Made by a program: the position numbers and the translations under genes
DNA from: Flavobacterium sp.
GTDB taxonomy: Bacteria > Bacteroidota > Bacteroidia > Flavobacteriales > Flavobacteriaceae
Direction: 5' to 3'
DNA length: 64,000 nt
NCBI GenBank assembly: GCA_020403245.1
Contig: JADBYA010000009.1
Span: 218,794-282,793 of the forward strand
Part shown: positions 18,718 through 63,600 of the stretch, one piece after another
How the letters are laid out: every line of letters begins with the position of its first letter
How positions within the stretch are numbered: position 1 is the first letter of the stretch
Notes under the pieces: generated by a model
What the model was told of the DNA's origin: nothing
Seen by the model: the letters and a program-made list of their open reading frames with translations, nothing else
Databases searched by the model: none

Positions 18718-18800
18718 GCTGTCCGATTTATTTTTTTTGTTTTGTCATGCTGAGCTTGTCGAAGCACAAAACAAAAAAAGGATGCTGCTGCCTTCAGGCC
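18718..18800. repeat. Dispersed composite repeat (hairpin arms plus CATGCTGAGCTTGTCGAAGC cap)
   Basis: TTTTTTTGTTTTGT (18732-18745) and ACAAAACAAAAAAA (18766-18779) flank the CATGCTGAGCTTGTCGAAGC core; GCTGTCCGAT...GGATGCTGCTGCCTTCAGG surrounds. Confidence 0.75.
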
Positions 18801-18816
18801 TGCCTGTCGGTAGACA

Positions 18817-18868
18817 GAGCTAAAAACAAAAAACCTGTTCAATTGAACAGGTTTTTTGTTTTTAGCTC
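18817..18868. terminator. Perfect 52-nt palindrome, probable bidirectional terminator
   Basis: GAGCTAAAAACAAAAAACCTGTTCAA|TTGAACAGGTTTTTTGTTTTTAGCTC between convergent genes. Confidence 0.85.
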
Positions 18869-18904
18869 TTTACGCCAATATCTTTGAGTCTTTGCGTTTA
18901 AATA

Positions 18905-28586: not shown

Positions 28587-28857
28587 ATTTCACGATTTGG
28601 AACAAAAGTAAATAATAGTGGAGGATTTTTTTTAAAAAATTAAATCTTTTGTCAAACTTTAACCCAAATAAAAAGAATAGAAACCAACTTATGATAACTT
28701 TAGAAGAATAGGTTATAAATTTGTAGCAGCAAATTTGATTTTGTTGCAATTTAATTCGAAAGCGTTTATTAGAGGAAATGCAAAATACAAATAGAATAAA
28801 AAATAATTAAAATAGCACGATGTTAGAAGATACAACTTGGAAGAAAGACTTCCCTCA

Positions 28858-28892
28858 TCCAACTTCCAACTCCCGCTTCCAACTTCCATCTC
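28858..28892 (+). repeat. CTTCCAACTTCCATCTC-type dispersed repeat upstream of DAHP synthase
   Basis: CCAACTTCCAACTCCCGCTTCCAACTTCCATCTC; related to sequences inside aroA. Confidence 0.65.
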
Positions 28893-30672: not shown

Positions 30673-31656
30673 ATGACTGGACACGTTTATAAATCTACCG
30701 GAAGTTGGTACACTGTAAAATCGGAACAAGGCGATTTTATAGAATGCCGTATCAAAGGGAAGTTCCGCATGCAAGGCATCAAAAGTACCAATCCAATTGC
30801 AGTGGGCGATATAGTAGATTTTGAACTCGATGAAACATCAGATACAACTACAGGAACTATTCACAATATTCACGACCGAAAGAATTATATTGTTCGAAAA
30901 TCAGTGAACCTGTCCAAGCAAACCCATATAATCGCTTCCAATATCGATATCGTTTTTCTACTAGTCACTATCAACAATCCGCCAACCACTACTAGTTTTA
31001 TCGACCGTTTTTTGGTTACTGCCGAGGCCTATGGTATTGAAGCGGTATTGATTTTTAATAAAATTGACACCTACGATGATGCCATGCTCGATGAACAATT
31101 GTATTTACAACACATCTATTCACAAATTGGTTATAAATGTTTGAAAGTTTCTGCTTTAGAGAAAAAAGGATTGGAACAGCTCAAGGAAATGATGATTGGA
31201 AAAGTGAATATGTTCTCTGGACATTCAGGTGTTGGAAAATCTACCTTGGTCAATGCATTAGAACCCAGTCTAAATCTGAAAACCAAACACATTTCCGAGC
31301 AAAGCAAACAAGGACAACACACCACGACTTTTGCCGAAATGTATGATTTATCATTTGAAGCCAAAATAATAGATACGCCTGGCATTAAAGGTTTCGGAAT
31401 TGTAGACATGGAGTCAACAGAAATAAATGGGTTTTTCCCTGAGTTTTTCAAGCTGAAAGACCAATGCAAATTCAACAATTGTTTGCATAAAGAAGAGCCG
31501 CATTGTGCTGTTAAAAAGGCCTTAGAAGAAAACAAAATTGCCTGGTCACGCTATAACAGTTACCTCAAAATTCTAGAAGGTGATGATGAACATTACCGTT
31601 CTGATATTAATAATGAGGATCGAATTGCTAGTGATGAAACGAGAAAAGCCCCCTAA
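30673..31656 (+). CDS. rsgA: Ribosome small subunit-dependent GTPase A
   Basis: 327 aa; GHSGVGKSTLVNAL, circularly permuted G motifs, DTPGIKGFG, C-terminal CxxxxHxxEPHC zinc site. Confidence 0.95.
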   Translation: MTGHVYKSTGSWYTVKSEQGDFIECRIKGKFRMQGIKSTNPIAVGDIVDFELDETSDTTTGTIHNIHDRKNYIVRKSVNLSKQTHIIASNIDIVFLLVTINNPPTTTSFIDRFLVTAEAYGIEAVLIFNKIDTYDDAMLDEQLYLQHIYSQIGYKCLKVSALEKKGLEQLKEMMIGKVNMFSGHSGVGKSTLVNALEPSLNLKTKHISEQSKQGQHTTTFAEMYDLSFEAKIIDTPGIKGFGIVDMESTEINGFFPEFFKLKDQCKFNNCLHKEEPHCAVKKALEENKIAWSRYNSYLKILEGDDEHYRSDINNEDRIASDETRKAP

Positions 31657-31674
31657 CCCCCAAAGAGGGAACTC
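31647..31674. repeat. GC-rich dispersed repeat spanning rsgA stop codon
   Basis: AGCCCCCTAACCCCCAAAGAGGGAACTC; inverted copy at 31723-31747. Confidence 0.8.
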
Positions 31675-31722
31675 TAAATAAATCTAAAAAATGCACAAAC
31701 AAGCTATTATTTCAATTTTTAA

Positions 31723-31747
31723 TTCCCCCTCTAGGGGTTAGGGGGCT
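31723..31747. repeat. GC-rich dispersed repeat immediately upstream of dtd
   Basis: TTCCCCCTCTAGGGGTTAGGGGGCT, near reverse complement of 31647-31670. Confidence 0.8.
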
Positions 31748-31748
31748 T

Positions 31749-38376: not shown

Positions 38377-38699
38377 ACCTAAAGAACTCCCAACTCGAAG
38401 TAGACAACTGGATAAAAAACCACGGTGTTCGCTATTTTAACGAACTGACCAACATGGCGCAACTCACCGAAGAAGTAGGCGAAGTAGCCCGAATAATCGC
38501 TCGCAGATATGGCGAACAATCCGAAAAAGAAAGCGATAAAAACAAAGACCTTGGCGAAGAACTCGCCGATGTCGTTTTTGTAGTGTTGTGTCTCGCCAAT
38601 CAAACCGGGATAGACTTGCAAGCCGCTTTCGACAAAAAAATGGAACTTAAAACCAACCGCGACCACGACAGGCATCAGAATAATGATAAACTTAAATAA
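38373..38699 (+). CDS. MazG-like nucleotide pyrophosphohydrolase
   Basis: 108 aa; LTEEVGEVARIIARRYGEQ...LGEELADVVFVVLCLAN. Confidence 0.88.
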   Translation: MNLKNSQLEVDNWIKNHGVRYFNELTNMAQLTEEVGEVARIIARRYGEQSEKESDKNKDLGEELADVVFVVLCLANQTGIDLQAAFDKKMELKTNRDHDRHQNNDKLK

Positions 38700-38700
38700 G

Positions 38701-38725
38701 AGGGAAGCTGGGAGATGGAAGTTTC
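38701..38725 (-). repeat. Inverted copy of CTTCCATCTCCCAGCTTCC repeat upstream of aroA
   Basis: AGGGAAGCTGGGAGATGGAAGTTTC; reverse complement resembles 28858-28892 and 38951-38983. Confidence 0.65.
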
Positions 38726-38773: not shown

Positions 38774-40039
38774 ATGAATCTACTTTTAAAACATAGCTTC
38801 CAGCTTCAAGCTTCCAGCTTTCAACTACAAATCACAGGGAGTAAATCCGAAACCAATAGATTGTTATTGCTACAAGCGTTGTATCCAAATATTTCATTAG
38901 AAAACACCTCCAATTCCGATGATTCAGAAGTGATGGTAAAAGCATTACAAAACTTCCATCTCCCAACTTCCATCTCCCAGCTTATAGACGTTCACCACGC
39001 AGGAACTGCCATGCGATTTCTAACCGCTTTTTTTGCTATTCAAGAAAATAGAGAAGTCATTCTTATGGGTTCATCCCGAATGAAAGAACGCCCAATTAAA
39101 ATCCTAGTTGATGCTTTACGTCAATTGGGAGCCGAAATCACTTATGAAGAAAATGAAGGTTTTCCACCCATCAAGATTAAAGGAAAAAAACTAACTTCAA
39201 ATAAAGTTTCTTTGGATGCTAATATTAGTAGTCAATACATTTCGGCATTATTACTAATTGCTCCAAAACTAGAAAACGGCATCGAAGTAACTCTTGAAGG
39301 CGAAATCACTTCCGTTCCCTATATCAAAATGACCTTAGCTTTGCTAAACCAAATAGGTGTTGAAACTTCTTTTGAAGAAAACACAATTAAAGTATATCAT
39401 CTTCCACAAATTCCCCCTTTGAGGGTTAGGGGGATTATAGAATCCGATTGGTCTTCCGCCTCTTATTTTTATTCTATTGTAGCACTTTCCGAAATCGGAA
39501 CCGAAATCACACTCGCTAGTTACAAAGAAAACAGTCTGCAAGGCGATTCTATATTGGTAGAAATCTATAAAAACTTTGGTGTAGAAACTGTTTTTAAAAA
39601 CAATAATTCAATTGTAATAAAAAAAATCAACTTTCACAACTCCTTCTCCTTCGAGGAAGGTTGGGATGGGGCAAATTCTCCCGACATTGCACAAACCATT
39701 GCCATAACTTGTTTCGGATTAGGCATTGGCTGTCATCTAACAGGTTTACACACACTCAAAATAAAAGAAACCGACAGGTTAGTAGCCTTGAAAAACGAAT
39801 TGACAAAACTAGGAGCAACGATTTCGGTAACCAATGATAGTCTTACTTTAGAACCATCAAAAAAAATCAACGAAAATTGTCTTATAAAAACCTATCAAGA
39901 CCACCGAATGGCAATGGCCTTTGCACCATTAGCACTCAAAAAACCTATCATCATTGAAGAAGCGGAAGTGGTTTCGAAATCCTACCCAACTTTCTGGGAT
40001 GATTTAAAAAAGATTGGCTTTTCAATAAAAGAAGAATAA
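38774..40039 (+). CDS. aroA: 3-phosphoshikimate 1-carboxyvinyltransferase (EPSP synthase)
   Basis: ITGSKSETNRLLLLQALYPNISLENTSNSDDSEVM, HHAGTAMRFLTAFFA, SDWSSASYFYSI, SPDIAQTIAITC; start trimmed to MNLLLKH. Confidence 0.93.
   Translation: MNLLLKHSFQLQASSFQLQITGSKSETNRLLLLQALYPNISLENTSNSDDSEVMVKALQNFHLPTSISQLIDVHHAGTAMRFLTAFFAIQENREVILMGSSRMKERPIKILVDALRQLGAEITYEENEGFPPIKIKGKKLTSNKVSLDANISSQYISALLLIAPKLENGIEVTLEGEITSVPYIKMTLALLNQIGVETSFEENTIKVYHLPQIPPLRVRGIIESDWSSASYFYSIVALSEIGTEITLASYKENSLQGDSILVEIYKNFGVETVFKNNNSIVIKKINFHNSFSFEEGWDGANSPDIAQTIAITCFGLGIGCHLTGLHTLKIKETDRLVALKNELTKLGATISVTNDSLTLEPSKKINENCLIKTYQDHRMAMAFAPLALKKPIIIEEAEVVSKSYPTFWDDLKKIGFSIKEE
38795..38826 (+). repeat. CTTCCAGCTT-type repeat inside aroA (N-terminus), in frame
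   Basis: AGCTTCCAGCTTCAAGCTTCCAGCTTTCAACT encodes SFQLQASSFQLQ. Confidence 0.75.
38951..38983 (+). repeat. CTTCCATCTCCCAACTTCC repeat inside aroA, in frame
   Basis: AACTTCCATCTCCCAACTTCCATCTCCCAGCTT encodes NFHLPTSISQL before IDVHHAGTAMRFL. Confidence 0.8.
39411..39434 (+). repeat. GC-rich dispersed repeat inside aroA, in frame
   Basis: TTCCCCCTTTGAGGGTTAGGGGGA encodes IPPLRVRG before IIESDWSSASY. Confidence 0.85.
39639..39672 (+). repeat. GC-rich dispersed repeat (variant) inside aroA, in frame
   Basis: ACTCCTTCTCCTTCGAGGAAGGTTGGGATGGGGC encodes NSFSFEEGWDGA before NSPDIAQT. Confidence 0.75.
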
Positions 40040-60860: not shown

Positions 60861-60865
60861 TCTTA

Positions 60866-60900
60866 GCTCCCCTCTACTTTGGAGAGGGGTTGGGGTGAGG
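60866..60900. repeat. GC-rich dispersed repeat between convergent genes
   Basis: AGCTCCCCTCTACTTTGGAGAGGGGTTGGGGTGAGG. Confidence 0.85.
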
Positions 60901-60901
60901 T

Positions 60902-62188
60902 TTAATAAATCAAATACTTTTTTCTCATCACTTTAAATTCATTCAATCCCTTTTCCCAGGATTTTCGAATTTCATTTTCCGAAGTTCCAGCTTCAATTTG
61001 CTGTTGTAGTTTTTTGGTTCCAGCAAGTTTGGTAAAAAATGAATTGAAAAATTTGTTTTTATCCGAAGTGGTATTGTACGCTTTTATTAACCATTTCAAT
61101 TCTAATTGTTTTACTTTTTCTATTTTGGATAAATCTTCTCCATAACATAATTGTCCTTTATGCATTGGTTCTTTGGCGCCAAAATTCGGAATCGGAGTAA
61201 AACTAAAATTACTCTTTGGTAAAAAAGGAGAACCATAAATCTGGAATTGCTTTTCGGTGCCTCGACCCACACTCACATTCGTTCCTTCAAACAAACACAA
61301 ACTAGCATACAAGTTTATGGCTTGGTCATTAGGTAAATTTGGAGAAGGTTTTACGGGTAAACTATAGTACTTTTCTCGTTTGTAATTGAGACAAGGAATT
61401 ACAGTTAAATTACATTGAATTCCCGGTCCTGAGCTTGTCAAAGGATTCAACCATTTTTCTCCATTAATCATTTTAGCATACTCACCAATGGTCATTCCGT
61501 GTAGTAATGGAATGGGATGCATCCCAACAAAACTCGTATATTCTTTTTCTAAAATCGGTCCATCTACAATTCCGCCATTCGGATTGGGTCTGTCAAGAAC
61601 AATAAGTTGAATATTATTCTCTGCACAAGCCTCCATCACATAATGTAACGAGGAGATATACGTGTAAAAACGGGCACCTACATCCTGCAAATCAAAAACC
61701 AAAATATCAAGACCAGCTAATTGTTCCGGTTTTGGTTTTTTATTATCGCCGTAAAGCGAAATAATTGGTAATCCGGTTTTGGTGTCTTTGCCATCTACTA
61801 CTTGTTCGCCCGCATCCGCTGTTCCTCGAAAACCATGTTCGGGAGCAAAGATTTTTTGGAGATTTATTTTTTCAGAAAGTAAATAGTCGACTATAGAAGT
61901 TTTAATAAACCTAACAGCTTCTTCACTTCCTATATTAGTATTATTTTTCACTTCTGTAAATTCTTTTATTGAAATAATCCCCGTCTGATTAGTCACAATC
62001 CCAATTTTATTATCTTTTAAAAAAGGTAAATAAGCAATATAATTGTCAGCGCCAGTTATAATGTCTTTATTATATTCGGTTTCAGCTCCCATCTCCTTTG
62101 GAGAGGGGTTGGGGGTGAGGCTTCCACAAGAAACCATTAGCAAAACCGAGAATAAAACTGTAATTTTGAACACTAAATTTGAAATCAT
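60902..62188 (-). CDS. DUF1343 / NamZ-like exo-beta-N-acetylmuramidase lipoprotein
   Basis: NKIGIVTNQTGI, FAPEHGFRGTADAGEQV, FDLQDVGARFYTYISSLHYVMEA, VLDRPNPNGG; start trimmed to MISNLVFKITVLFSVLLMVSCGS with lipobox. Confidence 0.9.
   Translation of the reverse strand: MISNLVFKITVLFSVLLMVSCGSLTPNPSPKEMGAETEYNKDIITGADNYIAYLPFLKDNKIGIVTNQTGIISIKEFTEVKNNTNIGSEEAVRFIKTSIVDYLLSEKINLQKIFAPEHGFRGTADAGEQVVDGKDTKTGLPIISLYGDNKKPKPEQLAGLDILVFDLQDVGARFYTYISSLHYVMEACAENNIQLIVLDRPNPNGGIVDGPILEKEYTSFVGMHPIPLLHGMTIGEYAKMINGEKWLNPLTSSGPGIQCNLTVIPCLNYKREKYYSLPVKPSPNLPNDQAINLYASLCLFEGTNVSVGRGTEKQFQIYGSPFLPKSNFSFTPIPNFGAKEPMHKGQLCYGEDLSKIEKVKQLELKWLIKAYNTTSDKNKFFNSFFTKLAGTKKLQQQIEAGTSENEIRKSWEKGLNEFKVMRKKYLIY
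61425..61450 (+). repeat. CCTGAGCTTGTC-type dispersed repeat inside namZ-like CDS, in frame
   Basis: GGTCCTGAGCTTGTCAAAGGATTCAA encodes (minus strand) LNPLTSSGP between GEKW and IQCNLTVIPC. Confidence 0.75.
62086..62121. repeat. GC-rich dispersed repeat inside namZ-like CDS, in frame
   Basis: AGCTCCCATCTCCTTTGGAGAGGGGTTGGGGGTGAGGC encodes LTPNPSPKEMGAE just after the lipobox Cys. Confidence 0.9.
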
Positions 62189-63439: not shown

Positions 63440-63600
63440 TTTCCCGTCTTCAGGATGTTTAGTCCCGCTATCCGCTATATCTTTTTAGTTTGTCATGCTG
63501 AGCCTTTCGAAGCACAAACTAAAAAGGACCTATCTGCCTGCCGGAAGGTCGGGGCTAGAGTAGACTTTCTACTTTCATCAGGAAGAGGGCTGCCCTAGGT
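63440..63600. repeat. Composite dispersed repeat with capped hairpin
   Basis: CTTTTTAGTTTGT (63481-63493) / ACAAACTAAAAAG (63514-63526) flank CATGCTGAGCCTTTCGAAGC; preceded by TCCCGCTATCCGCTATAT. Confidence 0.7.

Follow-up and report, generated by a model that had tools for sequence, protein, structure and literature searches.

Four loops of aroA consist of dispersed repeats

We analysed a window of 64,000 nucleotides from a Flavobacterium sp. genome of 3.13 Mb, in which aroA forms an intact open reading frame from an ATG at 38774 to a stop at 40039. We found that its product matches Pfam EPSP_synthase (E = 5e-76) and that its AlphaFold2 model (pLDDT 85) matches EPSPS structures (TM 0.82 to 5xwb). 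The gene is single copy; one other EPSP_synthase-family match in the genome lies on contig C45 and is presumably MurA. The only Rfam match is a neighbouring tRNA-Pro. The gene and the repeats in and around it are as follows.

38774..40039, + strand: aroA, EPSP synthase, 421 aa, repeat host (ORF; Pfam; AlphaFold2 model)
38795..38826, + strand: N site, 7-nt array AGCTTCC (SFQLQASSFQLQ) (heptamer call; repeat matches)
38951..38983, + strand: L2 site, CTTCCATCTCCCAA double-heptamer array (NFHLPTSISQL) (heptamer call; repeat matches)
39411..39434, + strand: L3 site, palindromic family P3 CCCCTTTGGGGGTTAGGGG (IPPLRVRG) (genome copies)
39639..39672, + strand: L4 site, palindromic family TCCTTCCCCTTCGGGGAAGGNTGGGATGGGG (NSFSFEEGWDGA) (genome copies)
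39851..39886, + strand: L5 site, repeat-free here; P4/P5 palindromic insertions in 8 relatives
38699..38724, − strand: inverted intergenic copy of the L2 repeat, 225 nt from L2 (repeat pair in the window)
28851..28892, + strand: intergenic heptamer array, N/L2 family (repeat list of the window)
31646..31748, no single strand: intergenic inverted pair of P3 repeats (repeat list; P3 scan)
60865..60895, + strand: dispersed P4 repeat, related to the L4 family (repeat list of the window)
62084..62114, + strand: second dispersed P4 repeat (repeat list of the window)

A sequence-only reading of this DNA had called the four segments at N, L2, L3 and L4 dispersed repeats lying in frame within the gene, and this call is borne out. 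Upon searching 1.135 Mb sampled from the same genome, we observed non-self matches at E ≤ 6e-5 for all four loops; at E ≤ 1e-4, 4/4 loops had a match, compared with 11 of 800 segments drawn at random from coding DNA and 0 of 38 from the aroA core. The best non-self match was 27 nt at 96% identity for N (E 3e-7), 26 nt at 92% for L2 (E 5e-5), 31 nt at 90% for L3 (E 3.5e-6) and 33 nt at 88% for L4 (E 2e-5). The N-site match lies within an rmlD-like gene (C12:103695-103721), with intergenic copies also matching, the L2 match is the inverted copy upstream of aroA and the L4 match is a copy inside polA, the repeat copies being found both between genes and within other genes. An exact 12-mer scan for intergenic repeats was too strict and did not recover the aroA loops.

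More than one unrelated repeat family is present in the gene, as the earlier reading had also recognised. N and L2 share a family of tandem 7-mers of the CTTCCAN type, and L3 and L4 carry two related G+C-rich palindromic families. In the whole genome, CCCCTTTGGGGGTTAGGGG (P3) has 19 copies at ≤3 mismatches and its reversed pattern none, CTTCCATCTCCC has 6 exact copies versus 0 for the control, and the L4 family has 4 copies, 3 of them intragenic (aroA, polA, leuS). P3 also occupies the L3 site in 3 relatives.

P3 additionally forms inverted pairs 70-100 nt apart that resemble REPIN doublets (window 31646-31679/31715-31748; C12:32148/32250; C4:35837/35931). Other palindromes in the window include TGAGCTTGTCGAA-type repeats, terminator-like and with A-rich and T-rich arms (18734-18777 and 63482-63525), and a perfect 27+27 nt palindrome with zero spacer, AGAGCTAAAAACAAAAAACCTGTTCAA (18816-18869).

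The repeats occupy permissive loops of a constrained enzyme

In the predicted model the loops are coils (residues 8-14, 61-68, 208-220 and 285-292) between strands and helices, in agreement with their earlier placement in surface loops adjoining conserved blocks. The N site comprises the turn and second strand of the N-terminal beta hairpin (residues 8-19; hairpin E3-7/E15-19), L2 is the coil between helix 49-60 and strand 69-72, L3 is coil 208-220, and L4 is coil 285-292 together with the strand after it. The residues that we assign to the catalytic motifs from known EPSPS features and the alignment (K24, S25, R29, S152-Q154, D304, K331, E332, R335, R378 and K402) are invariant and lie outside the loops. 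At a dN/dS of 0.07-0.13, the core of AroA is strongly constrained by purifying selection, while repeat classes swap between sister species.

The arrays keep the beta-strand hydrophobic register of repeat-free loops. Positions −4 and −2 before GSK at the N site, which are in part residues at or just beyond the array edge, are strongly hydrophobic in 61/61 array-bearing loops (30 classes), versus 17% in random phase. Position −3 at L3 is hydrophobic at a frequency of 0.89 versus 0.19.

Arrays and palindromes recur across Flavobacterium

We collected 100 distinct Flavobacterium-like AroA proteins, giving 400 loops at four sites each. The pooled DNA self-identity at lag 7 was 0.61, 0.57, 0.47 and 0.54 for the N, L2, L3 and L4 loops, respectively, and 0.26 for the core, with other lags and the rest of aroA at about 0.25-0.33. 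At a threshold of 15/21 at lag 7, a 7-nt array was present in 203 of the 400 loops (0-3 at other lags), and these arrays fall into 75 classes, such as AATTCAC, AACCCGC, AAAAGTC and AACTTCC. With a stricter test we counted 126 arrays in aroA (89 kb), 4 in the neighbouring ORFs (398 kb) and 37 in intergenic DNA (137 kb); the same strict test at other spacings in aroA gave 3 at 8 nt and 0 at 10-11 nt. Besides the arrays, five palindromic families (P1-P5) account for 27 matches in aroA, while in other ORFs P3-P5 gave no match and P1/P2 gave 6, none convincing. The dominant 7-nt tandem arrays span 28-50 nt and the palindromes 19-35 nt. When partitioning the species by lineage, we found at least one repeat-bearing site in 80 of the 87 species outside one early-branching clade of 13 species, in which aroA is nearly repeat-free, and no strict array in the 20 AroA genes taken from the order's other families. 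The sequence-only reading had not noticed that other repeats occupy the same sites in most Flavobacterium species, that the 7-nt tandem array dominates, or that other housekeeping genes of this genome are colonised.

Loops are mostly overwritten rather than extended

Next, we compared the median lengths of repeat-bearing and repeat-free loops among the 100 proteins. These were 13 versus 12 aa at N, 12-12.5 versus 12 aa at L3 and 14 versus 14 aa at L4, and only L2, at 14 versus 8 aa, gained length among the four sites. The fifth site, L5, holds palindromes only; it gains length with P4/P5 (24 versus 12 aa) and is unused in this window. Since orthologues have residues at the repeat positions and the lengths are nearly equal at three of the four sites, the repeats mostly overwrite loops. 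The claim that the four segments are insertions, with alignment gaps coinciding exactly with the peptides, is not supported: orthologues have residues at 4/4 sites and three show no repeat-sized gain. The same reading had named homologous residues in orthologues and single-copy DNA as the two observations that would count against it, and the former is what we find, whereas the DNA segments are not single copy. The underlying observation is real and wider than claimed, and it can be reinterpreted as dispersed heptamer and palindromic repeats recurrently replacing permissive loops, mostly at unchanged length.

Repeat classes turn over between close relatives

On a core-only tree, at least 45-52 changes of repeat class are needed at each of the four main sites. 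Part of these state changes are not new arrivals, as heptamer classes can drift by point mutation and slippage; because the class counts include this drift, the palindromes are the cleaner measure of turnover. P2 occurs 10 times (5 at L2 and 5 at L3) and requires 10 changes, and P5 occurs in 6 species and requires 5. Among 21 independent sister pairs we observed 15 wholesale class switches, with loop DNA identity of 0.45-0.71 versus core identity of 0.83-0.97. In the closest pair (L059/L080), a CCATCAC array in one species faces a CGAGCGGAGTCGAG palindrome in the other, and the lengths differ by one codon.

Furthermore, repeats are shared within genomes. Heptamers are common to different loops of one species in 43 of 188 pairs (18.9 when shuffled; maximum 30 of 500 shuffles), and 18 of 69 arrays in flanking DNA match the loops of their own species (7.6 when shuffled; maximum 16 of 500). 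This sharing among loops and flanks, together with the inverted L2 copy upstream of aroA, speaks for intragenomic copying rather than for slippage at each site alone.

Repeats in other genes

In the sampled genome, heptamer arrays number 35 in 115 kb of intergenic DNA and 16 in 1.02 Mb of coding DNA, a ratio that is reversed in aroA, which is richer than intergenic DNA. Coding copies, either arrays or palindromes, lie in genes resembling rmlD, glmM/pgm, prmC, queG, polA, leuS, hemE, rnhB and fur, as well as in a DegT aminotransferase, an E2 acyltransferase linker, a TonB receptor and a GSCFA protein, the names of those that have no Pfam call being read from sequence. The loop before YFPSYE in the GSCFA-family gene (L267-L290) is a second multi-species hotspot, occupied by differing heptamers or palindromes across many species, the clade with the nearly repeat-free aroA among them. 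In prmC there is a true insertion of about 10 aa (a CTTCCAA array), seen in this genome only among the relatives compared, and in polA a linker is replaced by a repeat with a gain of about 3 aa. RnhB was considered as a further insertion and rejected: on alignment its loop proves to be older and specific to the lineage, and in this genome the DNA of that loop has only a resemblance to P3. Relatives that have no P3-like DNA encode almost the same peptide there, and some apparent repeats may, as here, partly reflect convergence.

Two other genes show related peculiarities. Several repeat-derived peptides are present in leucyl-tRNA synthetase (L147:9755-13342, equal to contig C89:49755-53342), which also has a complete DUF559 domain (E 1e-31) before the editing domain. 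In a TonB-receptor-like ORF (L144; C12:494127-496364), the N-terminal extension, and possibly the signal peptide as well, is built of two heptamer arrays.

Comparison with known repeat systems

Rickettsia palindromic elements (RPE), which the earlier reading had rightly chosen as the parallel, are short dispersed repeats found both between genes and in frame within functional proteins (PMC3733652, review), and sequences like the Wolbachia palindromic elements (WPE) lie in frame and stop-free in addA, addB and priA (PMC4224334). Heptanucleotide repeats are known as dispersed tandem 7-mers, mostly intergenic, in Calothrix (STRR), Xanthomonas and Nostoc (GGGAATC) and Beggiatoaceae (TAACTGA); they are reported to be under-represented in coding DNA and mostly to follow one consensus per genome (PMC4692102, PMC4679880).

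As with RPE and WPE, one repeat family in Flavobacterium is both intergenic and in frame in conserved genes of one genome, and the host genes stay intact and constrained, with open frames and the low core dN/dS given above. The palindromic unit of RPE and WPE is about 100-150 nt long, whereas the Flavobacterium units are mostly tandem 7-nt arrays and far shorter palindromes. Additionally, many classes use the same sites in different Flavobacterium species, the loop is mostly replaced at constant length with sequence added only at L2 and L5, and the genus is free-living, in contrast to the reduced intracellular genomes that host RPE and WPE. The repeats thus work like RPE and WPE and are not members by unit type or length behaviour. 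Tandem 7-nt periodicity is shared with the heptanucleotide repeats, but in Flavobacterium dozens of classes are found inside protein loops, where the reading register is under selection. P3 resembles REP/REPIN in being a short G+C-rich palindrome, often in inverted pairs; unlike REP/REPIN, the copies lie inside genes and we found no RAYT-type gene flanked by P1-P5. No mobility enzyme was identified: the single Y1_Tnp match is flanked by ATCCC...GGGAT elements and by none of P1-P5, and RAYT-driven mobility of P1-P5 is unsupported. We found no earlier report of such repeats in Flavobacterium in the open-access literature searched, which is not proof of absence.

Origin of the repeat-bearing loops

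Taken together, the data make it probable that short dispersed repeats are recurrently copied into tolerant DNA, including the aroA loops, and are then filtered by selection. Tandem 7-nt arrays and REP-like palindromes would copy themselves recurrently wherever the DNA tolerates them, with four, sometimes five, surface loops or hairpin turns as the targets in aroA. Surviving copies would be those that keep the frame, are free of stops, leave the loop as long as before and have hydrophobic codons where the beta-strand register requires them, others being purged. The usual outcome would be an overwritten loop, with sequence added at L2 and L5, and slippage may later alter the arrays where they stand, which preserves the frame only in 21-nt steps. 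With somewhat less than even confidence, we infer that the repeats are copied from sites elsewhere through template switching or short-patch ectopic conversion. Within single species we observed no donor-recipient event.

It is rather unlikely that the loops arose locally and without mobility, through ancestral heptamer tracts homogenised in place by slippage and point mutation into a species-specific heptamer. Many bacteria favour heptamers as their long simple repeat (PMC4692102, PMC4679880), many neighbouring species have the same class at a site (27/84 comparisons), and L043 and L062 differ at L2 by exactly 21 nt, or three units and seven codons, a step for which slippage would still account under recurrent copying. 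However, local origin does not explain why palindromic families arrive whole (P2 independently in 10/10 occurrences, P5 nearly so), why an array in one species can face a palindrome in its sister, or why loops share heptamers with one another and with the flanking arrays of their own genome. The reading in which mobile repeats were inserted cleanly and in frame at four places in an ancestral loop, on the Rickettsia pattern, is very improbable: the gains of 6 aa at L2 and, with P4/P5, of 12 aa at L5 fit such events, as do the extra residues in PrmC, but the similar lengths of repeat-bearing and repeat-free loops rule out the model for N, L3 and L4, where no repeat-sized gain is seen.

That the repeats are selected for a function of their own, for example as DNA or RNA signals or as adaptive variation of the enzyme surface, might be suggested by the far greater richness of aroA in arrays than neighbouring genes and even intergenic DNA, and by the one similar hotspot loop in the GSCFA-family gene. 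We consider it highly implausible, as classes substitute for one another between sister species, many species are array-free at a given site, and the 13-species clade and 20 outgroup AroA are nearly or wholly devoid of arrays. A resemblance due to chance or low complexity, or an error of assembly, could be entertained for single segments of 24-34 nt, but has a negligible probability given the lag, array, palindrome and random-segment controls, the shuffled patterns, and the presence of the pattern in many independent isolate genomes.

Implications

Non-coding repeat DNA here becomes folded, selected protein, time after time at fixed positions in a core enzyme, and close sister species serve as before/after pairs. 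Two questions become testable, namely how short bacterial repeats spread without a transposase and what lets a protein position accept foreign sequence, which here is loop length and hydrophobic register. Flavobacterial protein segments such as PPLGVRG, HAELVSAS and QLSIVNYQL derive from repeats, and alignments, family models and annotation can be misled by them. More tentatively, a previously unrecognised, genus-wide process in Flavobacterium may copy heptamer and palindromic DNA over tolerant sequence at near-constant length, in which case the loops of core enzymes would record a turnover of intergenic repeats that is still going on.
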